A DNA stretch of 64,000 bases from Candidatus Woesearchaeota archaeon (GCA_016928155.1 JAFGLG010000009.1:1-64000); one strand, 5' to 3'. Shown: positions 40,203 to 57,852, numbered from the stretch's first letter. The notes: generated by a model from the sequence alone, not told the origin. Translations and numbers: made by a program.

Positions 40203-42338
40203 ATGACCATTGACAAGAAAGAGATGGAGGATCTCATAAACAAATACAAGAAGAACTTCAATGCCCAGCTCCAGACACCCACACTTGATGAAGACGCACC
40301 AAAGGCAGTGACAACACAGGAATACACAGAATTCAAATCACAGTACCTGCCGAAGCACATGACCTTCTATGAGAACGCATGCAGGATAGCTGCCAAAGTG
40401 CTCAAGATACAGCCAGATGCAAAGAAGATCCCTGAGCTGAAGAACGCGATCAGGACATGCCATCTCACAGTAACCCCAGAAGGCGTGCAGAGCCTGGCGA
40501 TACTCGCGCCGCTTGTCATAATATTCTTCGGCGGCATGCTAAGCATACTTATATTCGGAAGCCCATTCCTGCTCTTCGTATCTGTGATAGTCGGCGCGTC
40601 TGTCTGGGGCGCATTCACGAAGATGCCATACTTCCTCGCAGACAACTGGAGGCTCCAGGCGAGCAACCAGATGGTGCTCTGCATATTCTATGTGGTGACA
40701 TACATGAGGCATACGAGCAACCTCGAGCTTGCAGTCGAGTTCGCAGCAAACCACCTGAATCCGCCATTATCCCTCGACCTGAAAAAAGTCCTGTGGGATG
40801 TGGAGACACAGGAGTTCGCGACAATAAAAGAGAGCCTTGACTTCTATCTGGACTCATGGAAGCAGTACAACATGGAATTCGTGGAGAGCTTCCACCTGGT
40901 CATGTCTTCGCTGTATGAGACAGACGAGGCACGCAGGGTCTCGACACTCGAGAAAGCCCTGTCTGTGATACTAGAAGAGACATATGAAAAGATGCTCCAC
41001 TACGCATACAATCTCAAGAGTCCGATAACCATGCTCCACATGCTTGGGATAATACTGCCTATCCTCGGCCTTGTCATACTGCCGCTCGTCGTCAGCTTCA
41101 TGAAGGGCATAACATGGTATCACATAGCTGTGCTCTACAATTTCCTCCTGCCTGCAGGGGTCTATTTCCTCGGCAAGACAATACTATCAAAAAGGCCCAC
41201 AGGCTACGGAAACAGCGACATAAGCCAGAGCCATCCTGACAAGGACAACCTGAACAAGATCATATTCAACCTCGGGCCGTACAGCATAGCAATCAACCCG
41301 GTATTATTCAGCTTCGCGATAGGCATCGCAATGATAATAATCGGATTCAGCCCAGTGATCATGCATGCACTCAAGATGCCTGATGCTACCATACTCGGAT
41401 TCGAACTCCTCGGATACAGGACAACAGATACAGGTGATGTCATGGGACCATACGGGTTCCTCGCATCGCTGCTGAGCCTCCTGATACCCATGGGGATAGC
41501 GCTCCTCTTCGGCCTGAACCTGACACTCAAGACAAAGAAATTCATAAAGATAAGGGAAGAGGCCAAGAAGCTCGAGATAGAGTTCGCATCAGCGCTGTTC
41601 CAGCTCGGAAACCGCCTCGGCGACGGGCTTCCGGCTGAGATAGCATTCAGCAAGGTGAGCGACACCATGGTTGGCACGAACAGCGGAAAATTCTTCGACT
41701 TCGTATCGCTGAACATACGCAGGCTCGGCATGAGCGTAGAACAGGCAATATTCGACACCCATGAAGGCGCGCTCTCCAAATTCCCGAGCAACATGATAGA
41801 GAGCTCGATGAAGGTGCTCACAGAAAGCGTCAAGAAAGGGCCCCTTGTCGCAGCGCAGGCGCTGATGAATGTGTCAGAATACATCAAGGAGATGCACAAG
41901 GTAGACGAAAGGCTCAAGGACCTCCTGCAGGACGTCATCTCATCAATGCAGTCGCAGATAAAATTCCTGACACCGACAATAGCAGGCATAGTCATAGGGA
42001 TAACATCCATGATAACATCAATAATAGGCAAGCTAAGGCTGCAGATGACACAGATAACAGACGAGGCAGCAGTGGGGGCAGGGACATCGCTTGTGCAGAT
42101 GTTCTCAGAAGGAATCCCGACATACTATTTCCAGATAATCGTCGGAGTCTATGTTGTGCAGATAATCTACATACTCACAGTGCTCGCGAACGGAATAGAG
42201 AACGGCTCAGACAAGCTGAATGAGAAATACACAGTAGGGACAAACCTCATGAAAAGCACGATGCTCTACTGCGTGATATCATTCATCATCATGATAATCT
42301 TCAACATCATCGCAAACCAGATCATGAAGACATTGTAG
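40203..42338 (+). CDS. TadC/GspF-like platform membrane protein 2
   Basis: A 711-residue paralog of the platform protein at 22552-24723, with the same two T2SSF-like halves. Matching blocks are YMRHTSNLELAVEFAANHLN, LEETYEKMLHYAYNLKSP, FLTPTIAGIVIGITSM and the last helices after VVQIIYILTVLANGIENG. A soluble N-terminal region of about 100 residues precedes TM1-2. A TATTTAAAAA box lies about 30 nt before the ATG. It is followed eight bases later by a lipoprotein gene with AGGTG. With one ATPase in the window, the two platforms may pair as a heteromer, as in some archaeal Tad-like systems. Confidence 0.88.
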   Translation: MTIDKKEMEDLINKYKKNFNAQLQTPTLDEDAPKAVTTQEYTEFKSQYLPKHMTFYENACRIAAKVLKIQPDAKKIPELKNAIRTCHLTVTPEGVQSLAILAPLVIIFFGGMLSILIFGSPFLLFVSVIVGASVWGAFTKMPYFLADNWRLQASNQMVLCIFYVVTYMRHTSNLELAVEFAANHLNPPLSLDLKKVLWDVETQEFATIKESLDFYLDSWKQYNMEFVESFHLVMSSLYETDEARRVSTLEKALSVILEETYEKMLHYAYNLKSPITMLHMLGIILPILGLVILPLVVSFMKGITWYHIAVLYNFLLPAGVYFLGKTILSKRPTGYGNSDISQSHPDKDNLNKIIFNLGPYSIAINPVLFSFAIGIAMIIIGFSPVIMHALKMPDATILGFELLGYRTTDTGDVMGPYGFLASLLSLLIPMGIALLFGLNLTLKTKKFIKIREEAKKLEIEFASALFQLGNRLGDGLPAEIAFSKVSDTMVGTNSGKFFDFVSLNIRRLGMSVEQAIFDTHEGALSKFPSNMIESSMKVLTESVKKGPLVAAQALMNVSEYIKEMHKVDERLKDLLQDVISSMQSQIKFLTPTIAGIVIGITSMITSIIGKLRLQMTQITDEAAVGAGTSLVQMFSEGIPTYYFQIIVGVYVVQIIYILTVLANGIENGSDKLNEKYTVGTNLMKSTMLYCVISFIIMIIFNIIANQIMKTL

Positions 42339-47007: not shown

Positions 47008-47107
47008 GGGACGGTAGCTCAACCTGGGAGAGCACCACGCTGAAGAAGCCTGATTCCATCAGGTCTCTGATACGTGGGTGTCGGGGGTTCAAATCCCTCC
47101 CGTCCCA
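47008..47107 (+). tRNA. tRNA-Phe (GAA) with a 26-nt intron
   Basis: Cloverleaf by eye: acceptor GGGACGG/CCGTCCC (47008-47014, 47100-47106), discriminator A47107, D stem GCTC/GAGC, anticodon stem CCACG/CGTGG, T stem GGGGG/CCCTC with loop TTCAAAT. The anticodon loop reads CTGAAG...A, so GAA at 47042-47044 is the Phe anticodon. The extra 26 nt (47046-47071) lie at the canonical 37/38 position and fold as CCTGAT/ATCAGG, as in archaeal bulge-helix-bulge introns. TATA-like AAGTATATAAAT lies about 28 nt upstream. The 3' exon is the attachment site of the integrated element. Confidence 0.92.
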
Positions 47108-47109
47108 TA
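47071..47109 (+). repeat. attL: 39-bp core within tRNA-Phe
   Basis: The sequence from TACGTGGGTG to CGTCCCATA is identical to 55739-55777. It spans the whole 3' exon of tRNA-Phe (47072-47107) plus one base before and two after. Integration therefore leaves the tRNA gene intact on the left. Confidence 0.92.
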
Positions 47110-47994
47110 CTTAATCCTTCAATCCACGAAGGAAATAATGTCTTTTCTGCATTTCAACAGCAAAAACATGCGCATGATTTGGCCATAAAGTTTTCAAGAT
47201 ATGACGAATTCATTGAATGGCTCAAAACAAAGTATTATCCTCACACAATAACCCAGACCGGCGCCTATTTCAAGAAACACCTGTCCCAAAGGTCTTTCAG
47301 GAGCCCACAGGAGCTAAACAGATACATCCTGAGCAAGAAACGAGGCATAAAGAATCTCATTGTAGCAGCCAGGGTATACCTCAATTTCTGCGAGTATCAT
47401 GAGTATATGACTGAAGAGGCCATCAATTATTACAGGAAATACCTTAAGATACCAAGAGGCCATAAAGACATATACGTGCCCAGCAATGATGAGATAATAA
47501 AGAATTTTGAGATAATCAAGAGCCACAAGTCACTTAGGATGGTCTACATTGTGCTGGCCTGCTCTGGAATAAGGTATGTCGAAGCCCTGGACTTCCTCGG
47601 CAACTACGACCCCAAGCGCTTCAGGGTGCATTCCAATTATGTGTCTTACAGTGTAGGGCTCCTGCGCAATACCAAGAATATCAACAATATCTACTTACCC
47701 AAATTTGTTTATGAAATTTTGCATCCTGTCACCAATACTTACCAGTCCTTAGCTGTAAAAGTCAAAGAAAAAGGCGCCAGTGTCACATTCAAATACCTAA
47801 GAAAATGGAATTACAACTTTCTGCTCTATAACCAGGTGCCTGAGTCAGTAGCAGACTGGATTCAGGGGAGGTCAGGAAAGTCAGTCTCTGCCAACCACTA
47901 TCTAGCAAAAGGCCAGCAGGCTGACTACTGGTATGAGAAGGTTGCGGATAAGTTCCATGAATTGTTTAAGACTGTTCAGAACCGAGAAGGTTGA
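47074..47994 (+). CDS. int(C): SSV-type integrase, C-terminal catalytic fragment (IntC)
   Basis: The catalytic part of an archaeal tyrosine recombinase, open from GTG 47074 inside the tRNA gene. Active-site residues counted from there match the SSV1 integrase pattern: Arg167 in ACSGIRYVEAL, Lys240 and Arg243 in FKYLRKW (KxxR in place of HxxR), Arg266 in WIQGRSGKS, and nucleophile Tyr276 in SANHYLAKG. The first codons (GVGGSNPSRP) are the translated att core. In the excised circle it would continue from the 60-codon N-terminal part at 55598-55777, giving 354 residues. As it stands it lacks an own start signal and is probably silent until excision. Confidence 0.9.
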   Translation: MGVGGSNPSRPILNPSIHEGNNVFSAFQQQKHAHDLAIKFSRYDEFIEWLKTKYYPHTITQTGAYFKKHLSQRSFRSPQELNRYILSKKRGIKNLIVAARVYLNFCEYHEYMTEEAINYYRKYLKIPRGHKDIYVPSNDEIIKNFEIIKSHKSLRMVYIVLACSGIRYVEALDFLGNYDPKRFRVHSNYVSYSVGLLRNTKNINNIYLPKFVYEILHPVTNTYQSLAVKVKEKGASVTFKYLRKWNYNFLLYNQVPESVADWIQGRSGKSVSANHYLAKGQQADYWYEKVADKFHELFKTVQNREG

Positions 47995-47997
47995 CTA

Positions 47998-48024
47998 ACT
48001 GGTATAGATTCTGGACGAGGTAGG
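47998..48024. repeat. 27-bp direct repeat, copy 1
   Basis: ACTGGTATAG ATTCTGGACGAGGTAGG just after the IntC stop recurs at 50231-50257 with two differences. Both copies lie inside the element in intergenic positions. Confidence 0.7.
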
Positions 48025-48044
48025 CTGTGTCATCAGAGATTTTA

Positions 48045-48629
48045 TCATTTCCAATATTCTTTTGCTGAAATAATAGAATATTCCTTATTCTTCTTCTGGT
48101 TTTTATTTCTTATTGACAATCCTCTATTGATTTCCTTGTAAACCATAATAATATGGTATATGAGAAATGCTAACAAAACTATCGCTGATATCCATTTATA
48201 GGGTTTTGCAACAATTAGGTATATAAAAAAACCCAATATAATCCAATTAATAACACCAAAATTCTTTATTTGGTATACAACCAAAGCTAGCCATTTTTTA
48301 TGGTCATACAATGTCATTCGCATGCCAAAATCAAAGAACCATTCAAGCTGACCAAGAGTCTCCCAAGTAATCCAAAAAACAGGAACATTATTTGCATTAT
48401 AAATATCCGTCTTTTTCTGTTTTTGCTTACGATATTTTTTACTAGCTAGTTTACCTGCAAATTCAATGTAAATATCATATCGCTCTAAATAAAAATCCGG
48501 CTTGAATTGGTGAGGACCTGGATATTTGGAGGTGCCTTTTAAGTCAACAAGTTGTACTTTATTATTATACTTATACCCATTATCAATTAGATAATCTTCT
48601 ATTACCATTTCAGGCTCATTCTCAACCAT
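48045..48629 (-). CDS. membrane-anchored nuclease-like protein (PD-(D/E)XK pattern)
   Basis: A 194-residue protein. The N-terminal 110 residues have a nuclease-like core: HQFKPDFYL, then IYIEFAGKL, then KKYRKQKQKK, YNANNVPVFWITW. This is a D...ExK-like arrangement of PD-(D/E)XK/VSR-type folds. Two membrane helices follow (about 128-162), with a basic cytosolic tail. An active site next to a membrane anchor is unusual; it could degrade incoming DNA (superinfection exclusion) or act in element transfer. It starts 6 nt after the stop of the upstream surface protein. The fold call is from the motif pattern only. Confidence 0.5.
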   Translation of the reverse strand: MVENEPEMVIEDYLIDNGYKYNNKVQLVDLKGTSKYPGPHQFKPDFYLERYDIYIEFAGKLASKKYRKQKQKKTDIYNANNVPVFWITWETLGQLEWFFDFGMRMTLYDHKKWLALVVYQIKNFGVINWIILGFFIYLIVAKPYKWISAIVLLAFLIYHIIMVYKEINRGLSIRNKNQKKNKEYSIISAKEYWK

Positions 48630-48635
48630 TTTGCC

Positions 48636-50132
48636 TCACTTTTGTAACTTTTTTCTAAAATAAATAAGCATTATCAATATCGTCAGCCCAAGCATTGGGA
48701 CATAAAATATTGGCTTAATTGTGATAACATTGTCCTCTGTTCCTGCGACTGCTCCAGTTATTTCATTATTTTCTTTCTCAACAAGATTATTACTCTCATT
48801 AGAATTGTTATTATTGATTTGTAGGTTAGTTTCTTGAGTATTATTAGTATGATTAATAATTACTTCATTAGGTTTCTGGTCTGGGTAAACCACTTCCATT
48901 TCAAATATTATAGTATTATTTCCACTTTCTTTTTCAGGTTCTTCCATCTCTTCATTATCATTTTCATTGGATTCCCCTTCTTTCATGAAATCTTCATCAA
49001 TCTGTCCATCACAATCATTGTCAAGATTATCGTTAATTTCAGTCTCGGGAAAAGTAGCATCACAGTTTATCCATACACCATAATAACAAGATTCTTCTCC
49101 AAATGTGCATATACCCTTGTTGGTATCTCCACATTCTCTGGTTAAATCCTCATCAATTAACTGATTGCAGTTGTCATTCGCATTGTTGCAGATTTCAGTG
49201 GCACCCGGGTGGATTGATGCATCACTATCATCGCAGTCCTCAAATAAATTATAACCATCATTATCCTTATCCTCACACAAATCACCAATGCCATTATCAT
49301 TATTATCTTCTTGGTTGAGGTTAGTCAAGTCAGGACAGTTATCACAGGCATCACCAAAAGAATCATCATCACTATTTTCTTGTCCTGGATTGGCTATGTC
49401 TAAGCAATTATCTTGAGAATCCAATACTGAATCAGAGTCCCCATCACCCTCAATATCCACAAAATACGGCCCATTATAGCTTTGGAAAGTACCAGTATTA
49501 GTAGCTTCATTCATATTATTATCAATAGAGCTAACACGATAGAAGTATTTTGTATTATGTTTTTGATTATACAATCTAATCTTATGTTGCTCAACAAGTG
49601 ATTGATATTGTATTGTTCCTAATTCATAACTTTCTGTTTCACCATACTCAATCTTGCTGGTTGCAGGCTCATTCGTGGTCCAGACAAAATCTAGTTCTCC
49701 ATATTGTTTGTTTGTGGCCTTTGCATTCGATATTAAGGGAATAGATTTATCAGATACAATAAAATATAGGGATTTATCAGCATCCCCACAACTTGCTTCT
49801 AAATAATAAGCCCCGATATTAAGATTATTATCATAATAGAACTCATATTCTCCATCAATATTAGATGTTGTTTCTAAATCAATTGGCTCAAGAGTATTAT
49901 CAGACAAAGAGTTAATCCTCAACCCCACATCCTGCATGGAAGCTTCTACCCCATTTATCCGCACCATACCTTCGATATGTACCTGCTCATCCTCAGCATA
50001 TTCAAATTGATTAGTATCAACAGACAAGGAAAATAAGCCATCAGCAAAGCTCTGTGGACTTGATAGAAAAACTATAAAGACTATGAGGAATATATGCTTT
50101 AGTCCATAGATTCTATATAACAACTTAACCAA
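48636..50132 (-). CDS. large surface protein with TSP3/MopE-like repeats and C-terminal anchor
   Basis: A 498-residue exported protein. The signal helix (about 13-30, ending SFADG) precedes Ig-like domains (about 30-225). Thrombospondin type 3-like Ca2+ repeats follow (DGDSDSVLDSQDNC, DDSFGDACDNCPD, NNDNGIGDLCED), then MopE-like CDDSDASIHPGATEICN and DNDCDGQIDEDF. An acidic Asn-rich linker leads to one C-terminal helix (about 472-490). This is the element's only large surface protein and a candidate adhesin, spike or mating factor. The start is uncertain (TTG 50132 or later); CATTTAAATATT lies about 30 nt upstream. Confidence 0.7.
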   Translation of the reverse strand: MVKLLYRIYGLKHIFLIVFIVFLSSPQSFADGLFSLSVDTNQFEYAEDEQVHIEGMVRINGVEASMQDVGLRINSLSDNTLEPIDLETTSNIDGEYEFYYDNNLNIGAYYLEASCGDADKSLYFIVSDKSIPLISNAKATNKQYGELDFVWTTNEPATSKIEYGETESYELGTIQYQSLVEQHKIRLYNQKHNTKYFYRVSSIDNNMNEATNTGTFQSYNGPYFVDIEGDGDSDSVLDSQDNCLDIANPGQENSDDDSFGDACDNCPDLTNLNQEDNNDNGIGDLCEDKDNDGYNLFEDCDDSDASIHPGATEICNNANDNCNQLIDEDLTRECGDTNKGICTFGEESCYYGVWINCDATFPETEINDNLDNDCDGQIDEDFMKEGESNENDNEEMEEPEKESGNNTIIFEMEVVYPDQKPNEVIINHTNNTQETNLQINNNNSNESNNLVEKENNEITGAVAGTEDNVITIKPIFYVPMLGLTILIMLIYFRKKLQK

Positions 50133-50230
50133 CCCCTTTTACTTGTATTGCAAGAGAATATTTAAATGTTGTCAAGAAAAAGGCCCAATTTAAGATTTAG
50201 AAGGCTCATAAAGGGCATTTGTCAATTACG

Positions 50231-50257
50231 ACTGGTATAGGTTCTGGATGAGGTAGG
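50231..50257. repeat. 27-bp direct repeat, copy 2
   Basis: ACTGGTATAGGTTCTGGATGAGGTAGG, 25 of 27 bases identical to 47998-48024. It lies between the 4-TM protein gene and the promoter of the surface protein. Confidence 0.7.
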
Positions 50258-50274
50258 AATTATCTAAATTATAT

Positions 50275-50715
50275 TCATTTGTTTTTTCTCACCCTTTTTT
50301 TAGTTAATTTATCTGACCAGATATAAACCAGAAAAATGAATATAAACAATAGGAAGAAATAACCACTAAAATTTCCTAAATTCAACCTCAAGTTATACAA
50401 GAAAAGGCTACCAGATTCCCCAGTCTGATTATATCCAGGATTATACATCTGATAATCATAAACTGGAAAATAAGTAATACCAACAAAAATAAAATATATA
50501 ATAATAGCAGGAACAAGCAAATGTCTCATTAGTAATACTTTCTTGTCTTTTTGTTGTTTGCAGTATCTCACCCATTTATAGGTAAGAAATCCGAATACTG
50601 CATATAGAAACAGTTGCATAAAAATATCATTTGCCCAGATTAACATTAAAGTTCCGATAGCAATTACAAATATTATTAATAATCCTGAAAAGTAATCCTT
50701 AATATTATTATTCAT
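50275..50715 (-). CDS. four-helix membrane protein, unknown
   Basis: A 146-residue protein with four predicted membrane segments: about 10-27, 31-46, 64-82 and 115-133. A polar loop with YNPGYNQTGESGS lies between helices 3 and 4, and the tail is very basic (KKRVRKNK). GAGGAGATACTG precedes the ATG. No family recognised. It sits among other element membrane proteins and may be an envelope or exclusion protein. Confidence 0.6.
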   Translation of the reverse strand: MNNNIKDYFSGLLIIFVIAIGTLMLIWANDIFMQLFLYAVFGFLTYKWVRYCKQQKDKKVLLMRHLLVPAIIIYFIFVGITYFPVYDYQMYNPGYNQTGESGSLFLYNLRLNLGNFSGYFFLLFIFIFLVYIWSDKLTKKRVRKNK

Positions 50716-50805
50716 CAGTATCTCCTCTTTTTTACTTTAATAGGTAAACATATTTTTTCATTTTTCATCCAATCCACCACACTCCTCAGAAGCTTCAGGC
50801 GTTAA

Positions 50806-51153
50806 TCAAAAGATTGAGCCAACTGAAACTCCAAAAAGCAATAGTATAACAAAAATAGCAATTACAAACAATGGAAATACTATAAACATACCAATCGCGA
50901 TATTTATCCCGAGTGATATAGGATTTGCAATGTTAACATGATATATCTCTCTTTCTTGAGACTCATCAATTTGGTAAGCAGGATAATCTTTAACTTCTTC
51001 TGGCTTATCATGAGCTTCTACTTTTTCTATATGTTGTGGATGAGTTCGATGGTGTGTGGGTTCATGATGATGCGCTTCGTGGTGATAAGGTTGTGGCCTT
51101 GGTGGATGCTCTGAATGGTCTATATGTGAATCTAGAAATTCATTCGTTTTCAT
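50806..51153 (-). CDS. His-rich membrane protein
   Basis: A 115-residue protein. The N-terminal 45 residues hold a dense His/Pro/Glu cluster (YHHEAHHHEPTHHRTHPQH), a likely metal-binding or pH-sensitive tail. A charged linker follows, then one long C-terminal hydrophobic stretch (about 76-113) that could be one or two helices. GGGGTTAACAAA precedes the ATG. No family recognised. It might be a small envelope protein or a metal sequestration factor of the element. Confidence 0.55.
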   Translation of the reverse strand: MKTNEFLDSHIDHSEHPPRPQPYHHEAHHHEPTHHRTHPQHIEKVEAHDKPEEVKDYPAYQIDESQEREIYHVNIANPISLGINIAIGMFIVFPLFVIAIFVILLLFGVSVGSIF

Positions 51154-51259
51154 TTTGTTAACCCCATCAAAGTTAAATATTAAGGGCTATATTGATATTT
51201 AAATGTTATCACTGAATAAGAAAATAACCTTTATAAATACTACTTCATATATTAGTAAA

Positions 51260-52375
51260 ATGAAAAAGAGGATTATACTTGTCCCAATTCTGATTCTAGT
51301 ACTATTTATTTGGGGTTGCAGTTCTACAACTAACAAATCAGAGACAGATTTAATCTTTGAAGAATGTGAACAAGATACCTCAAACAATCCATTGGTATCT
51401 TATGTAATTGATGAAGACTGTCTTATTGAAAAAGCAGATAGTATTGAACAATGCAAGGATTATGAAGGAAAGACTACTTACTCAGGAATGGCTAGTAGAG
51501 AATTTACACAAGAAGATGTTGAAAAATGTATTTTTACACTAGCTGTAACAAACCTTGATGCAAATATGTGTGAAGAGCTTATTTCAACTAAAAATGATTG
51601 TTTTATGCAAGTAGCTAAAGGTTCCTATAATCATAGTATATGTTTGAAAACAGAAAATGTGACTGCATGTTATCAGCAATATGACCTTTATCATACCAAA
51701 TGCAAGAATGATACCTATAATTATATGGTAACAAACATTGCTTGTGGTTTCTCAAATCTTAAAATTACACAAGAAGATATGGAAATTGGTAATACAATAT
51801 GTGATTTGTCTCTTATCCCAACACAATTGTATGATGAAGAGGAAAGGCCTGATGTATGTTTAGCAGCAATGGGTGTTTATTTTAAAGATACTTCTCTCTG
51901 TGATGACGCAGGAGAATTCAAAGGTGACTGCTATGTCGGTCTTGCAAGAATAGTGCCAGAATTTTCTTTGGCAGATTGTGATAATGCAGGAGTTAACTAT
52001 GTGGGGTGCTATGTTGCAGTAGCAGTGAAGAATAAGGACCCATCAATATGTGCTAAACTTCCAGAAGGAAACAAAGAAAGTTGTATAAGCAGCATTTCAT
52101 CCCAAACCACCTCATATTCATCATGTGTTGAAATTTTTGGAGATGAAAGTGAATCTTGTGCAGAATATTTTGCTCCAAGAATGAAACCAGAAGAATATAC
52201 TATGGGTTTTTGTGAAAGTCTTATCAAAATAGGTCGTAGTGTGGGGGGACCACCACTAGACCAATGCTTTTATGAAGTTGCAACACGGACTCTAAATCTA
52301 GAAGCCTGTGATAAGATAAGAAACCTGGATAGTGTCAATGAATGTAAAACAGTTGTTAATCATGCATTGAATTGA
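51260..52375 (+). CDS. Cys-rich lipoprotein
   Basis: A 371-residue protein with a lipobox-like signal (MKKRIILVPILILVLFIWGC, Cys20). The mature part has more than 25 cysteines in repeated ...C......C(Y/F).A....+...C... units (for example DCYVGLARIVPEFSLADCDN and GCYVAVAVKNKDPSICAKL), an alpha-helical disulfide repeat I have seen described only loosely in DPANN lipoproteins. ATG 51260 is about 25 nt from TTTATAAATAC, so it is leaderless. It is one of the few rightward genes of the element. Function unknown. Confidence 0.65.
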   Translation: MKKRIILVPILILVLFIWGCSSTTNKSETDLIFEECEQDTSNNPLVSYVIDEDCLIEKADSIEQCKDYEGKTTYSGMASREFTQEDVEKCIFTLAVTNLDANMCEELISTKNDCFMQVAKGSYNHSICLKTENVTACYQQYDLYHTKCKNDTYNYMVTNIACGFSNLKITQEDMEIGNTICDLSLIPTQLYDEEERPDVCLAAMGVYFKDTSLCDDAGEFKGDCYVGLARIVPEFSLADCDNAGVNYVGCYVAVAVKNKDPSICAKLPEGNKESCISSISSQTTSYSSCVEIFGDESESCAEYFAPRMKPEEYTMGFCESLIKIGRSVGGPPLDQCFYEVATRTLNLEACDKIRNLDSVNECKTVVNHALN

Positions 52376-52399
52376 TAGTAAGACCAAATTGAGGTCAAC

Positions 52400-52891
52400 T
52401 TACATAAATTCTGGTGAAAACAAGCGAACACAATCTTTATAGAATATATCAAAGTCATTAACAATCATTTCAAAACCAATATTATTGATAATTGAATAAG
52501 CATTTAACCAATCCTTACCTGATTTCAATTCTTCCTCATCATCTAAATGGGCAATTATTTTATTGCGAAACCTTTCCAATTTATTAAGGTATTTTGGAAA
52601 CTTAGGAAAATGTATTGTAGAAGAGGAATTATACTTTCTTGCTAAATTATAAAAACTCACTATTTCTAAAATAATATACTCCCACAAGCGTTGTGAAGGA
52701 GATTGTCCAGTCTTAATCAATTCCATATTTTCTGGTACTTGTAATTGCTTAGCATTTTTATCAATGACTCGCATATAATCCAGTAAGGTAAGAACTCTAA
52801 TATAAGCAAAATTAAGCCGGCCAAATTTTTTCGGAGTGCTAGTTTCAATACTTTTAACTAATCTTTTCAAGTTATCTTGTGTGTTATTCAT
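52400..52891 (-). CDS. HEPN-domain protein (AbiU2/Cthe_2314-like)
   Basis: A 163-residue all-helical protein. The segment FRNKIIAHLDDEE carries RNxxxAH (R109, N110, H115), the RX4-6H signature of HEPN domains. HEPN proteins are often RNases in toxin-antitoxin or abortive-infection systems and act on RNA during stress or infection. Placement on an integrated element fits a defence or maintenance role. An obvious MNT nucleotidyltransferase partner is absent. Convergent with the lipoprotein gene. Confidence 0.6.
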   Translation of the reverse strand: MNNTQDNLKRLVKSIETSTPKKFGRLNFAYIRVLTLLDYMRVIDKNAKQLQVPENMELIKTGQSPSQRLWEYIILEIVSFYNLARKYNSSSTIHFPKFPKYLNKLERFRNKIIAHLDDEEELKSGKDWLNAYSIINNIGFEMIVNDFDIFYKDCVRLFSPEFM

Positions 52892-53014
52892 TTTAATACC
52901 CTAAATTAATAATAATATCTTATACCAAAACAAAATAGGAGATAACCCCCACAACACCCAAATTCATAAGGTGGATGGCAAGATAATATATAAATATTAC
53001 CATGGTTTTTTGAT

Positions 53015-53171
53015 ATTTGGGCAGTCGTCAGCGAGGTATACTATCCTGATGGTGTCAAAGAGGGCCATAAACTTTCTACTGGAATGCTACCAGGCTTAAA
53101 ATAAAGCGATTGGAGAGGCTTTTGTCGACCTGAACAACAAAGCAAGGACGTCAGAAAAGACCTCCCAAATC
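53015..53171 (+). ncRNA. candidate structured RNA of the element
   Basis: A strong TATA-like AATATATAAATAT (52985-52997) is followed by no coding frame. About 25 nt on, ATTTGGG (53015-53021) can pair with CCCAAAT (53164-53170), closing a region of about 155 nt that is GC-richer than its flanks. It has further helices such as CTGG/CCAG near 53080. It may be a regulatory or antisense RNA of the element; a decayed gene is the alternative. Confidence 0.4.
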
Positions 53172-53220
53172 AGCCCATTTTAGCCCTGGTGAGACATCAA
53201 AAATAAGGACAACAATGCCC

Positions 53221-53334
53221 TCAATACATACCTTTGATATCTCCAACATCCTCGTTGTCCCACGAGTCACTGTCTTCATAGTCTTGGGAGTCTTCCCAAT
53301 CCAACTTTTCAATATTCTTTCTTCGCTTCTTCAT
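53221..53334 (-). CDS. small acidic protein (37 aa)
   Basis: A short frame with basic start MKKRRKNIEKLDWEDSQDYE and acidic end (SDSWDNEDVGDIKGMY). It is supported by a textbook archaeal ribosome binding site, CAGGTGA, five bases before the ATG. No family recognised. The charge split suggests it contacts nucleic acid or a basic partner; an antitoxin-like or anti-restriction role is speculation. Confidence 0.55.
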   Translation of the reverse strand: MKKRRKNIEKLDWEDSQDYEDSDSWDNEDVGDIKGMY

Positions 53335-53533
53335 ATTGTTCACCTGTTTTCTTATTTTATCTCCAGTTACAAACTGGATAACTTAATGAAGAGCTAATAA
53401 ACACTCTTCAAAACAATATTACTCCCATACAGACTTTATTATTAACCAACACAGGTATTGTATTATTGATTCACAAACTGGAGTATGAATTGACCAAGGG
53501 ATATATGAACCAACATAGCAATACACTGTATTA

Positions 53534-53569
53534 CATACTGACAGACTTACTGACTTACTTACCAGTATG
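53534..53569. terminator. inverted repeat at the end of the 53555 gene
   Basis: CATACTG (53534-53540) and CAGTATG (53563-53569) enclose 22 nt with tandem GACTTACT units. The hairpin straddles the stop of the leftward gene and may end or stabilise its transcript. Confidence 0.35.
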
Positions 53570-54061
53570 TGAAGTCCGCTTGATTTCTTTCCATACATAC
53601 GTCTTCCTATTCTTATTCAACACTTTAAACGTCCGGTCATTCAAATCATAGTTGCCTCCATTGTTTTTGATATAGTTAGCCAGGCCAACCATTGCTCCAC
53701 GACTAAGGGCAAGCGGGTATTTGTCCCCCATTATCATATTTGAAGCATTGACATTGTATCTTACTGTCGCCAAAATTCCCATTGCATTTCTCTCTCCCAC
53801 ATTGCTTTTTGAGTGAAACTGATACTTTACTGCCTCAGGCCATTCTTCATGAAAGATAATGACCAATTCAACTTTCTCAGGCAAGGTATTGTATTCTCTT
53901 TCTCCAAAGACTTCATTCAACTCATCCACAATGCTCCCATAACTTCTACTCTTGTATTTCTCTGGAATTCTTATCTCTCCTCTTCGAAACATTTCTTCCG
54001 CTTCTTCACAGGCTCTAAAATCGTCAGAAGCTTCAACCTGTGTCTCTTCCCAAAAATCCAT
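53555..54061 (-). CDS. hypothetical element protein
   Basis: A 168-residue soluble protein. The N-terminal third is acidic (WEETQVEASDDFRACEEAEE), the middle is mixed (VELVIIFHEEWPEAVKYQFH), and the C-terminus is basic (FKVLNKNRKTYVWKEIKR). No family recognised. A perfect GGAGGTGA lies six bases before ATG 54061, and its start is one base from the previous stop, so it is third in a coupled operon with the DUF5131 gene and the 113-aa gene. Confidence 0.6.
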   Translation of the reverse strand: MDFWEETQVEASDDFRACEEAEEMFRRGEIRIPEKYKSRSYGSIVDELNEVFGEREYNTLPEKVELVIIFHEEWPEAVKYQFHSKSNVGERNAMGILATVRYNVNASNMIMGDKYPLALSRGAMVGLANYIKNNGGNYDLNDRTFKVLNKNRKTYVWKEIKRTSHTGK

Positions 54062-54062
54062 T

Positions 54063-54404
54063 TTAGCTCACCTCCACATATTTCCTCAATAAGGTATTCT
54101 CTCCTGCATCTTTCCTTTTCAATTTTCGAAGTTTAACACATCTCTGTTTGTCTCCGTTATACTCATATGTCTGACCTCTGAGAAATTCATCGACCCCGAC
54201 AGTGTAAATCAGGGTCTTATTCTCGTCTTTATAGGTTATTTCGATGTTATCCACTTTCAATTGCTTAAGGTCCAGCAAAACGTCCTCAGATATATTCACT
54301 GACATGAACATCCTGAAGACATTTTTAGGACTTCTCGTTGTGTAGTACGTTTTGCCTTTCACCTCTCCAACTATCTTGCCTTCTTTTCTTATTGGTATGC
54401 TCAT
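54063..54404 (-). CDS. hypothetical element protein
   Basis: A 113-residue soluble protein starting MSIPIRKEGKIVGEVKGKTY, beta-rich at first, then alternating charged strands (DNIEITYKDENKTLIYTVG) and a strongly basic end (KLRKLKRK). The start at 54404 follows GAGGTGACAGT and overlaps the DUF5131 stop by ATGA; the longer frame has no such support. No family recognised. The basic tail may bind nucleic acid. Confidence 0.65.
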   Translation of the reverse strand: MSIPIRKEGKIVGEVKGKTYYTTRSPKNVFRMFMSVNISEDVLLDLKQLKVDNIEITYKDENKTLIYTVGVDEFLRGQTYEYNGDKQRCVKLRKLKRKDAGENTLLRKYVEVS

Positions 54405-55072
54405 ACTGTCACCTCTGCCTTCGGAAATTCTTTTATCCTTTCCGGATAATTGTAATTGTCCTTGACCCATACAGGAATTCCTTTCTCTCTCGCTTGTGCT
54501 ATCAACTTATCAGCCCATTCTCGAGGAGGCCTCTCAGCACCTCGATTAGAATTCGCTCCGATAATAATCCACTGAAGGCCAGACAAGTCAACATTGACCT
54601 CTTCAAGCAACGGCTCAAAAGAGACAAACTTCACACTGGCCTCTGCTTCCTTCAATGGCGCCAGCACAAAATTAGCTCTTCCCTGCGTATCAATACTAGT
54701 TCCAATCCAGACATTAACCGGAAAATCATAGTCTTTATAGCCTTGAGGGTACTTTGACAATATCTGAAATGTATGCTGACTGCACTCCCTAATCTTTGCC
54801 AGTATTGCTTCAGTCCACTTTGGGTCGTTGTCCTTGCAGTTCCAATCATACATGCTATCAATGAAAATCTTCTTCGGCTTCTGCGTGGGCTTCAACTTAT
54901 CTAGTCTTTCCAAATGTGCATGAGGCACAAACTTATAACACAATTGACACCATGGCCTTCTTCTCATAGCCATTCTTCTTGCATAACAGTACGTACATCC
55001 ATGTGTGCAGCCTACAACAGGATTGATTGTAGCGTCTGTCCAATCTATCTTATCACTATTCTGATTATTCAT
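54401..55072 (-). CDS. DUF5131 (phage Gp37/Gp68) family radical-SAM-like protein
   Basis: A 223-residue protein of the phage Gp37/Gp68 family. The start KIDWTDATINPVVGCTHGCT and CxxxCxxC triad (C22, C26, C29, GCTHGCTYCYA) match the family, which resembles radical SAM proteins with a 4Fe-4S cluster. Other hallmarks are FIDSMYDW, VWIGTSIDTQ, SFEPLLEEV and IIGANSNRG. The family is frequent in phages and mobile elements; the reaction is unknown. It is first in a three-gene operon, with GAGGTAGATATA before the ATG and a TTTTAAATATTT box near 55143. Confidence 0.82.
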   Translation of the reverse strand: MNNQNSDKIDWTDATINPVVGCTHGCTYCYARRMAMRRRPWCQLCYKFVPHAHLERLDKLKPTQKPKKIFIDSMYDWNCKDNDPKWTEAILAKIRECSQHTFQILSKYPQGYKDYDFPVNVWIGTSIDTQGRANFVLAPLKEAEASVKFVSFEPLLEEVNVDLSGLQWIIIGANSNRGAERPPREWADKLIAQAREKGIPVWVKDNYNYPERIKEFPKAEVTV

Positions 55073-55597
55073 TATATCTACCTCTTATTTTTCAATTTCG
55101 TATAGCTAAAGCTACATCGTTTTTCAAATCAAAAGAAAATATTTAAAACTAAATCAAACCATCTTCTCTTTTTCACTTCATTCTAACCACTTCCCATTAT
55201 AGCTATCATAGTGATAGTTAATTTGAATAATTAAAATTCCAGCCACTAAAGGCTAGAATCTTAATGAGAATAATTTAGAATTCACTCTTATCTTTCTCAT
55301 CACTGTCATCGCTATAAAAGTCGTCAATTGATTATTCTTTATATTATATTAATACAACTTTAAATATATAAAGTTTTCGCTTTTCGTCCCTGTTTTGTAG
55401 TTACATGTAGTAAAAATGACGCAAAATTTGGCCAAAATTGAAAAATTACTAAAAAATTTCCGGACGCACTAAGTGTATATAATATCAATATCTCTTTAGA
55501 CTATTCCCGAGTCAGGCCACTAGCAAAAGGCGGCCAGTGTTGGCTTCCATGCCGGTACTACAAAGTATTAAATAAAATCTATGCGCATGATATTTAC
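55073..55597. other. 525-bp AT-rich region upstream of intN (possible origin/control region)
   Basis: It contains the leftward promoter of the DUF5131 operon, a near-palindrome ACTTTAAATATATAAAGT (about 55369-55386), TATA-like GTGTATATAATATC (55474-55487), a GC-rich patch listed separately, and TATTAAATAAAA (about 55567-55578), about 25 nt before the intN ATG. It is the longest non-coding part of the element and therefore its best candidate for a replication origin. Confidence 0.4.
55500..55561 (+). ncRNA. candidate small RNA upstream of intN
   Basis: A GC-rich patch starts about 25 nt after TATA-like GTGTATATAATATC. It has short hairpins GACT/AGTC (55500-55503, 55511-55514) and GCCACT/AGTG-TTGGC (about 55517-55545) and no coding frame. 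Its last bases, CCGGTAC, recur next to attR (55735-55741). It may be a small RNA, a leader, or a recombination arm site. Confidence 0.35.
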
Positions 55598-55789
55598 ATG
55601 ATTTCGAAGAAGCCAGTCAACTTGAGCCTTGATTTTGAATTAATCCAGAATTTGAAAAAGAAGCGCATAAACCTGTCCAAATACGTAGAAAAGCTCATTT
55701 TAAAGGATTTAGCCGCTATTCCTATGCTAAAAAACCGGTACGTGGGTGTCGGGGGTTCAAATCCCTCCCGTCCCATAATAAATTCCTAG
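55598..55789 (+). CDS. int(N): SSV-type integrase, N-terminal fragment (IntN), RHH domain
   Basis: A 63-codon frame; the first 60 codons (to 55777) are the missing N-terminus of the integrase, in the same frame through the att core as IntC. Residues 4-40 (KPVNLSLDFELIQNLKKKR, INLSKYVEKLILKDL) look like a ribbon-helix-helix DNA-binding domain. After the core only three chromosomal codons precede the stop. TATTAAATAAAA about 25 nt upstream makes it leaderless and probably expressed in the integrated state, so the fragment may act alone as a DNA-binding repressor. Confidence 0.85.
   Translation: MISKKPVNLSLDFELIQNLKKKRINLSKYVEKLILKDLAAIPMLKNRYVGVGGSNPSRPIINS
55739..55777 (+). repeat. attR: 39-bp core
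   Basis: Identical to 47071-47109, the 3' exon of tRNA-Phe. Here it lacks the 5' half of a tRNA and is not itself a tRNA gene. It marks the right end of the element. Confidence 0.92.
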
Positions 55790-55810: not shown

Positions 55811-56209
55811 TCAATATTCTATGTCTTCCTCATCCACATCAGAATCATCTGAAGATCCTGAATCCTCATCTTTGGGAGCTGCAGAAGGTGCAGGCCCTGC
55901 TGATTCCGGAGCAGAAGATGACTTCCCGACAACCTCGAGCTTTCCCATCCTGCCAGTGCCAAGCTGGAGCTCACCCTGCCACTCAGTCACATAGCCATTA
56001 GTTATATGGACCTGATCACCTATATTGACCTGATCGACCTGCTCATTCCAAAGAGTCAGCTTGATCCTGCCAGTCTGATCCTCAGCCATGGCATTGCAGA
56101 CCTGGCCGGTCTTGCCGAACTTCTCGAACTGCCTCGGGCCATCCTTGGAAACGACATTAACAGTGATATCAACATTCCCTTGTTTCGCTTTCAATTCAGA
56201 TATTGCCAT
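55811..56209 (-). CDS. single-stranded DNA-binding OB-fold protein
   Basis: A 132-residue protein with one OB fold (about 10-95: VNVVSKDGPRQF, AMAEDQTGRIKLTLWN, NIGDQVHITNGYVTEWQGE) followed by a Ser/Pro/Ala linker and a very acidic tail (EDSGSSDDSDVDEEDIEY). This matches the crenarchaeal-type SSB design (short RPA/SSB with acidic C-terminus for partner binding). GAGGTATTATA precedes the ATG, and it follows glyS by 9 nt, so they share a transcript. It should protect ssDNA in replication and repair. Confidence 0.82.
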   Translation of the reverse strand: MAISELKAKQGNVDITVNVVSKDGPRQFEKFGKTGQVCNAMAEDQTGRIKLTLWNEQVDQVNIGDQVHITNGYVTEWQGELQLGTGRMGKLEVVGKSSSAPESAGPAPSAAPKDEDSGSSDDSDVDEEDIEY

Positions 56210-56218
56210 TATAATACC

Positions 56219-57733
56219 TCACTCAAATTTTTCTCCGGCAAGAAAACAACTGATCCTGCCTTTAAGATCATCAATCCTCATCCTCAGCTGCCTGGTCGAA
56301 TCCCTGTCCCTCACAGTGACTGTGCTGTCCTGCAATGTGTCAAAATCTATTGTCACACAAAAAGGGATCCCGAGCTCATCAGCACGGGCATAACGCCTTC
56401 CGATGCTACCTGACCTGTCATAGAAGCAAGTGAAATCCTTCCTGAGAGACTCGAATACCTCCCTTGCCTTATCATTCACCTTGTTGACGAGAGGGAACAC
56501 AGCAACCTTTGTCGGAGCAATCCTCGGATCCAGCCTGAGCACAATATTGCCCCGCTCCTTGTCGTCATCATAAGCATCGACCAGCACTGCAAGGAAAACC
56601 CTCTCCATGCCAAAGGTAGGCTCAATCACCCTGGGGATGATGTGCTCCTTCTTGTCCTCGTCAAACACAGCAAGCTTCTCCTTGGACTCCTTGATATGCT
56701 GATTCAGATCATACTGGCCCCTGTTCGCATTGCCTGCTATCTCTTTAGAGCTGAAAGGATAATTGTAATCGATATCAAAGGTCGCTGAGCTGTAATGAGA
56801 AAGCTCCTTCTTGGTGTGCTCCCGGATCTTGAGATCCTCCTTCTTCAGGCCGATATCATAGAACCACATCATCTGCTCAGCGAGCCAATAAGCATGCCAT
56901 CCATCCAGGCGCTTGTCCTCGACCATCTTGCCGATTGTGGTCTCCTTGAGCTTAGCATCATCCTCATCCTGGGATTCCTTATCCAAAAGCATGACTTTGA
57001 GGTCAAGATGAGCCTTTGTCAGGAGATCGCACTTCTTATCATCCGGATGAATGAAGAACTCAAACTCTGCAATCGTGAACTCGCGGCTACGGAACATGAA
57101 ATCCCTGGGCGAGATCTCATTCCTGAAACACTTGCCGACCTGGGCAATGCCGAAAGGAAGCTTCTGGCGCGTTGTCTCTGCAATGAGCCTAAAGTCAGTG
57201 AACATGCCCTGGGCAGTCTCACCCCTCAGATAAACCTCGCTTGCAGAACCCTCTTCTGCGCCGACAAAAGTCCTGAAAAGAAGATTGAAATCCCTGACTT
57301 CCTTGAAAGCACCTCTGCATTTAGGGCAGACAAGGCCATTGTCCTGTATAATCATGTTGATATCAGATGCCTTGACACCCTCAACATTCCTGCCGGTCGC
57401 ATCCCCGATGAAATGATCAGCCCTGAGCTTATTATTGCACTTGGAGCATGAGAGGACCATGTCACCGAAGCTGTCAAGATGACCAGAAGCCTTCCATACC
57501 CTCGGGTTCGAGATGATGCTGGCATCCATGCCGACCATGTTCTCCTTATCATGGACAAAATGCTTCCACCAATGCTGCTTTATGTTGTTGAAAAGCTCGA
57601 CACCATAAGGCCCAAAATCAAAAAAACCAGAGATGCCGCCATAAATCTCAGAACTAGGAAAAACAAAGCCTTTCTTCTTGCAAAAAGAGGCTATCTCATC
57701 AATATCCAGCTCATTCTGCGGCCTTTTATCCAT
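56219..57733 (-). CDS. glyS: glycyl-tRNA synthetase
   Basis: A 504-residue archaeal/eukaryotic-type homodimeric GlyRS, charging tRNA-Gly. Features are GFVFPSSEIYGGISGFFDFGP at the N-terminus, a zinc-ribbon-like CSKCNN...CPKC insertion (about 95-155), motif 2 FRNEISPRDFMFRSREFTIAE near 215, motif 3 PTFGMERVFLAVL near 385, and a C-terminal anticodon-binding domain (about 405-500). ATG 57733 is about 24 nt from CTTATATATC; upstream in-frame ATGs are rejected. Cotranscribed with the SSB gene. Confidence 0.93.
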   Translation of the reverse strand: MDKRPQNELDIDEIASFCKKKGFVFPSSEIYGGISGFFDFGPYGVELFNNIKQHWWKHFVHDKENMVGMDASIISNPRVWKASGHLDSFGDMVLSCSKCNNKLRADHFIGDATGRNVEGVKASDINMIIQDNGLVCPKCRGAFKEVRDFNLLFRTFVGAEEGSASEVYLRGETAQGMFTDFRLIAETTRQKLPFGIAQVGKCFRNEISPRDFMFRSREFTIAEFEFFIHPDDKKCDLLTKAHLDLKVMLLDKESQDEDDAKLKETTIGKMVEDKRLDGWHAYWLAEQMMWFYDIGLKKEDLKIREHTKKELSHYSSATFDIDYNYPFSSKEIAGNANRGQYDLNQHIKESKEKLAVFDEDKKEHIIPRVIEPTFGMERVFLAVLVDAYDDDKERGNIVLRLDPRIAPTKVAVFPLVNKVNDKAREVFESLRKDFTCFYDRSGSIGRRYARADELGIPFCVTIDFDTLQDSTVTVRDRDSTRQLRMRIDDLKGRISCFLAGEKFE

Positions 57734-57852
57734 TTTCAGCCTAAAAATGCCGTCTGATATATAAGATTTTTGCCTCAAAATCAATCCAATCATATAAAAG
57801 AAGGCCAATAATTCATATAAACAATAACATAACAGACCGGTCTGGTGGTTAG

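Follow-up and report, generated by a model that had tools for sequence, protein, structure and literature searches.

How did a GC-poor stretch of DNA come to lie between a tRNA-Phe gene and the OB-fold and GlyRS genes of an archaeal genome, and what moved it there? The window that we analysed, 64,000 nucleotides of a Candidatus Woesearchaeota genome (GCA_016928155.1, JAFGLG010000009.1:1-64000), contains such a segment. It is 8,668 bp long and has a GC content of 35%, against 46% in its flanks, an 11-point contrast. A sequence-only reading of the window had proposed an active or recently active SSV-like element with a split integrase in a DPANN-like genome.

The segment is bounded by two repeats, attL and attR, that are identical at exactly 39 of 39 positions; the match extends no further on either side. 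The coordinates given in the sequence-only reading are correct to the base. The left copy had been described as the 3' exon of tRNA-Phe; in full, the repeat consists of the final intron base, this exon and two bases downstream of the gene. Copies of the site occur only twice in the host genome (1.48 Mb, 99.7% complete), and these are the two ends of the element. The tRNA-Phe(GAA) gene has a 26-nt intron (47046-47071) at position 37/38, and was identified using ARAGORN with introns allowed. A run without the intron option missed the gene; this is an effect of the setting and does not conflict with the assignment. The 3' end of tRNA-Phe is restored on insertion, as expected for a type I integrase. 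The coordinates of all features are listed in Table 1.

Table 1. Features of the window element and loci in related genomes (L numbers).
Feature	Position	Strand	Basis
tRNA-Phe(GAA), 26-nt intron, restored insertion target	47008-47107	+	ARAGORN with introns
attL: last intron base, tRNA-Phe 3' exon, two downstream bases	47071-47109	+	39/39 identity to 55739-55777
int(C): catalytic part, GTG start inside att, PF16795	47074-47994	+	ORF, domain match
Weakly nuclease-like (PD-(D/E)XK) N-terminal part, predicted membrane segments	48045-48629	-	PADLOC PDC-S69, 8e-9
Surface protein, MopE/thrombospondin-3 repeats, C-terminal membrane anchor	48636-50132	-	PF11617, 9e-10
Small multi-pass membrane protein, no assigned function	50275-50715	-	sequence
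His-rich protein, C-terminal membrane segment, no assigned function	50806-51153	-	sequence
Predicted Cys-rich lipoprotein	51203-52375	+	sequence; weak lipoprotein PHROG, 0.0025
Weakly HEPN/AbiU2-like protein	52400-52891	-	PF18734, 0.0011, below cut-off
Protein restricted to window and G041 elements, 48% identical core	53555-54061	-	2/338 genomes
ORF, no assigned function; listed start overlaps next gene	54063-54470	-	ORF
DUF5131 (phage gp37/gp68-type) radical-SAM protein, 53% to G041 counterpart	54401-55072	-	PF07505, 6e-44
AT-rich non-coding region, about 526 bp, upstream of int(N)	55073-55597		no convincing ORF, GC 30%
int(N): RHH N-terminal part of split integrase, codons 1-60, enters attR	55598-55777	+	ORF, domain match
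attR: displaced copy of tRNA-Phe 3' exon	55739-55777	+	39/39 identity to attL
OB-fold and GlyRS genes	55811-57808
Lipoprotein genes of other elements	L024 5705-6640; L025 7641-8315; L127 4183-6044; L128 7148-8218; L027 13170-15632
Stand-alone RHH frames	L031 8607-8756; L032 7583-7708, 11593-11721; L033 17264-17148; L034 14999-14877, 16671-16561; L035 14164-14045
Integrase loci of S141 bin.181	L056, L057, L060, L063, L064, L065, L070

The two integrase fragments can be read as one gene. When position 55777 is joined to 47110, as the sequence-only reading proposed, the frame from ATG 55598 continues through attR for 60 + 294 codons, giving a stop-free 354-residue protein. In this joined circle form, attP corresponds to codons 48-60 of the integrase gene. 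Each half is recognised independently by domain search. PF07362, a model of RHH antitoxins, is matched by residues 4-38 of the N-terminal piece (1.1e-5 when the joined protein is searched), and Phage_integr_3, PF16795, by residues 182-340 in the C-terminal piece (2.6e-34). The catalytic R..KxxR..R..Y residues are R215, K288, R291, R314 and Y324 in joined numbering, and are invariant in the family alignment. The family profile also matches the solved catalytic domain of the SSV1 integrase (1e-18). A gene-internal attP, splitting on insertion and PF16795 catalysis form the signature of type I 'suicidal' archaeal integrases (PMC8371274). By homology, the joined gene is a type I (SSV-type, suicidal) tyrosine recombinase with predicted activity; the proposal of an SSV-type integrase split by insertion into tRNA-Phe stands. 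The AT-rich region upstream of int(N) is likely to be the promoter of the integrase gene. No perfect palindromes with arms of at least 8 bp, which might signal an origin, occur in the element's two non-coding stretches.

The segment is very probably an integrated mobile element, a plasmid or a virus, that encodes a tyrosine recombinase of type I (suicidal, SSV-type, pT26-2-like) and would form a circle of 8,668 bp when free. The split gene, the att sites and the restored tRNA are directly visible in the DNA. In the circle, an attP that copies the tRNA-Phe 3' exon would lie inside the integrase gene and, judging by homologous enzymes, the integrase would recombine it with the chromosomal tRNA-Phe gene. 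On insertion, the element's copy would complete the tRNA while the integrase gene is split. Int(C) would thereby come to lie immediately behind the tRNA and its promoter, as for pTN3, and int(N) would end up at the opposite end, retaining a start and an upstream region of its own. To be excised, the element would then depend on a complete related integrase supplied in trans or, as proposed for pTN3, on int(C) expressed from the tRNA promoter.

The nearest named homologues are in Candidatus Woesearchaeota MAGs, one of which is labelled Nanoarchaeota, and the nearest relatives sit in genomes of the window's own GTDB order. On these homologies the host is a DPANN archaeon of a woesearchaeal order, in agreement with the sequence-only reading. 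A related integrase (1e-8 or better) is present in 17 of 353 genomes of the order. Seven further Woesearchaeota elements have both att copies, and rejoining restores an open integrase frame in each. Their targets are tRNA genes of six kinds: Leu(CAA) in G041 (7.0 kb) and G193 (9.7 kb), Glu in G040 (11.1 kb), Phe in G093 (6.8 kb, far att at the contig end), Thr in G123 (5.9 kb, antisense to the tRNA), Pro in G012 (~15.4 kb) and Arg in G292 (7.4 kb, with a short, decayed att). For G041, a short exact att was rejected as the crossover boundary, as it reflects one mismatch within a longer match. Archaeal genomes commonly hold tRNA gene fragments, and a displaced fragment could in principle have come to lie in frame with an unrelated ORF near an old integrase fragment. 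We give this explanation virtually no credence. About 1e-14 repeats of 39 bp are expected by chance in 64 kb, both integrase halves have their own domain matches, and the same layout recurs in eight elements from different genomes; these replicates already exclude a coincidence.

A maximum-likelihood tree was built from 65 catalytic domains. Nine woesearchaeal integrases, including that of the window, form one clade (support 100/99), which is spread over many families and uses several different tRNA genes. The larger group around this clade (95/91) includes suicidal integrases of Thermoplasmatota, Archaeoglobi and Thermococcales. The integrases of G123 and of some family f84 genomes are separate lineages, and among viral contigs a single distant integrase was matched. 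Three other loci bear on the wider family. At L130 (3134-4162, minus strand) a related one-piece integrase with an RHH N-terminus and no tRNA-derived peptide, possibly a non-suicidal relative, adjoins type III restriction-modification-like genes. On an Archaeoglobaceae contig (L076, 157-17500) a suicidal element of 8.7 kb is present twice in tandem, with an intact integrase restored between the copies; this represents either two real copies or an assembly of circle and integrated copy. At least seven related integrase genes are present in the archaeal MAG S141 bin.181, and five of these directly follow different tRNA genes (Lys, three Arg and Gly).

The best characterised relatives are the integrases of pT26-2 and of an Archaeoglobus provirus rather than that of SSV. 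The joined protein is homologous over residues 3-347, including the RHH-like N-terminus, to the integrase of the Thermococcales plasmid pT26-2 (PMC6972569, PMC8371274). Coverage is 97%, with 25% identity (tblastn 1e-16) and a profile alignment probability of 99.8%. The sequence-only reading was to be refuted if, among other things, the joined N-terminus resembled no other integrase; it does resemble that of pT26-2, and this refutation fails. As in pT26-2, attP lies within the gene, the tRNA 3' end is targeted and many different tRNAs are used. Conversely, pT26-2 and pGE2 group in the tree among Archaeoglobi and Thermococcales sequences, while the window integrase belongs to its own woesearchaeal clade; both lie inside the larger group (95/91). 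The att peptide of pT26-2 is antisense to the tRNA, whereas the nine woesearchaeal clade members are read in the tRNA sense. Intron-bearing targets, with the anticodon loop outside the shared site, are a further difference. The best match in the phage collection is the integrase of Archaeoglobus profundus pleomorphic provirus 1 (Pleolipoviridae; 29%, 7e-23), whose att peptide is antisense, unlike that of the window; no other gene of that provirus is shared with the element. The fusellovirus SSV1 shares splitting on insertion, PF16795, the R..KxxR..R..Y residues and a tRNA target. However, identity to SSV integrase (27%) is confined to the C-terminal part, the N-terminus of SSV-RH is unrelated in sequence, and the SSV1 exchange point in the anticodon loop lies outside the window's shared site. 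By description alone, the integrase also resembles that of pTN3 from Thermococcus nautili, which is suicidal with int(C) behind the tRNA promoter; host phylum and element differ. Two candidate novelties were rejected. An RHH N-terminus is not a woesearchaeal invention, being present or very similar in pT26-2 and an Archaeoglobaceae integrase. Nor is an int gene in the tRNA sense new, as int(C) of pTN3 has been reported to be transcribable from its tRNA promoter.

The term 'SSV-like element' requires a narrower use. It holds for the integrase, whose family profile reaches the SSV-type catalytic domain, but not for the element. In pairwise sequence searches, window ORFs matched no pT26-2 gene besides the integrase. 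At the sequence level, only the integrase matched two Archaeoglobus pleolipovirus genomes, so that no shared VP3/VP4-like or ATPase gene was found. As for fuselloviral structural and conserved genes, the window genes compared had no structural PHROG or Pfam match, and no gene besides the integrase matched the 3.7-kb stretch of the SSV-RH integrase region. It should be said that 'SSV-like' applies to the integrase alone.

What else does the element carry? The genes between the integrase halves are listed in Table 1; for the ORF at 54063-54470, an internal ATG is more likely to be the true start. The neighbouring 53555-54061 protein occurs in 2 of 338 genomes of the order searched, each time within a split-integrase element and beside a DUF5131 gene. 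The window genome and G041 are members of separate families, and the gene pair sits in elements at two distinct tRNA targets, an arrangement that speaks for horizontal transfer of the pair. No relatives of this protein were found in viral contigs, and its predicted structure (pLDDT 35.5) is too low in confidence to use. Predicted lipoproteins, one or more per element, are encoded by six of the eight complete woesearchaeal elements; many are rich in Cys, and most are unrelated in sequence.

Searches that included Pfam and PHROG recognised no replication or capsid genes in the window element. Likely replication genes are present in two sister elements: AAA_25 with a CHC2 zinc finger in G040 and a D5-like gene in G123. 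This difference, together with decayed copies in several relatives, fits a fixed genomic island, inserted by such an integrase and since immobile through loss of its replication module, with surface-protein genes that serve the host. We consider that a real possibility, though one that falls somewhat short of an even chance. Against it, both int halves are fully open, attR has kept 39/39 identity to attL even though no tRNA constraint acts on it, and the GC content is unameliorated. The open frames, att identity and GC contrast fit a fairly recent insertion, which is a narrower statement than the 'active or recently active' of the sequence-only reading. Small size and the lack of a replication gene of its own could also describe a satellite, for which a helper virus or plasmid supplies replication, packaging and a complete integrase, as SSV2 does for pSSVi and pSSVx. 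Excision with a split integrase depends on a related enzyme supplied in trans (PMC8371274), which also fits a satellite. We consider this unlikely, since no helper was seen in the host genome, whose one PF16795 gene is the split integrase itself.

We return to the mobile element with a type I integrase, and to its target. Strand exchange by SSV1 occurs at the anticodon loop, and the recombination sites of pTN3 and pT26-2 have to include this loop (PMC8371274). Protection of tRNA genes from integration by their introns has been discussed as an idea (PMC3293823). Nevertheless, four of the eight complete elements target an intron-bearing tRNA gene. At these targets the shared site starts either 1-10 nt from the intron's 3' end or within the 3' exon: at the last intron base in the window's tRNA-Phe, in the last 3 nt in tRNA-Pro of G012, in the last 10 nt in tRNA-Leu of G193, and downstream of the intron in tRNA-Leu of G041. 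Thus, the intron has not prevented insertion at these targets. In the window the intron, apart from its final base, lies 5' of the shared sequence, which confines strand exchange to the 3' exon; a crossover near the T arm is more likely than one in the anticodon loop. Introns were found in 3 of 4 element-bearing and 3 of 12 element-free tRNA-Phe genes; at p = 0.12, we do not claim enrichment.

Several relatives contain stand-alone int(N)-like RHH frames with no catalytic half, some of which adjoin a tRNA fragment repeat. They are either decayed elements or retained RHH regulators. The 60-residue int(N) itself forms a nearly complete RHH domain and has its own start and upstream region. Insertion might accordingly act as a switch: the circle would make integrase, and the integrated form would make only int(N), which would repress the element or block further insertion, with exchange in the 3' exon being indifferent to introns. 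We think this combination very unlikely. If it were true, open int(N) frames in decayed copies would be retained regulators.

The insertion locus has a history of its own. Among OB-gene loci of relatives (L137-L165), tRNA-Phe lies within ~1.2 kb of the OB-fold gene in 12 of 29, always co-directional, and several of these have GlyRS on the other side. The window's tRNA-Phe points in the opposite direction, and the element lies between it and the OB-GlyRS genes. Given the conserved co-directional order, the window lineage has undergone an inversion of tRNA-Phe and perhaps of its element too. In G071 and G041 the order is OB gene, tRNA-Phe, element remnants and a homologue (53-55%) of window 40203-42338. 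On contig C16 of G041, a low-GC stretch of 14 kb lies behind tRNA-Phe and repeats the 3' end of this gene four more times, once with a mismatch; it also contains two open int(N) frames (L169 3573-13001, L032 7138-11780). These extra copies and frames indicate repeated, serial insertion at one tRNA-Phe gene. Thus, the OB-gene/tRNA-Phe locus is a recurrent insertion site.

Suicidal integrases have been described mainly from hyperthermophilic Crenarchaeota and Euryarchaeota, in viruses and plasmids of heat-loving archaea. DPANN archaea do not feature in a 2021 review of archaeal tyrosine recombinases, and in the open-access literature, a scope outside which most subscription papers lie, we found no description of such enzymes in DPANN archaea. 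On sequence evidence, the type I family in DPANN is genuine. Two features are worth following, the intron-bearing targets and the recurrent insertion locus. The idea that tRNA introns give protection (PMC3293823) becomes directly testable, because half of the complete elements occupy intron-bearing tRNA genes. The woesearchaeal clade provides exactly delimited mobile elements in a group of archaea whose mobile elements are hardly known.
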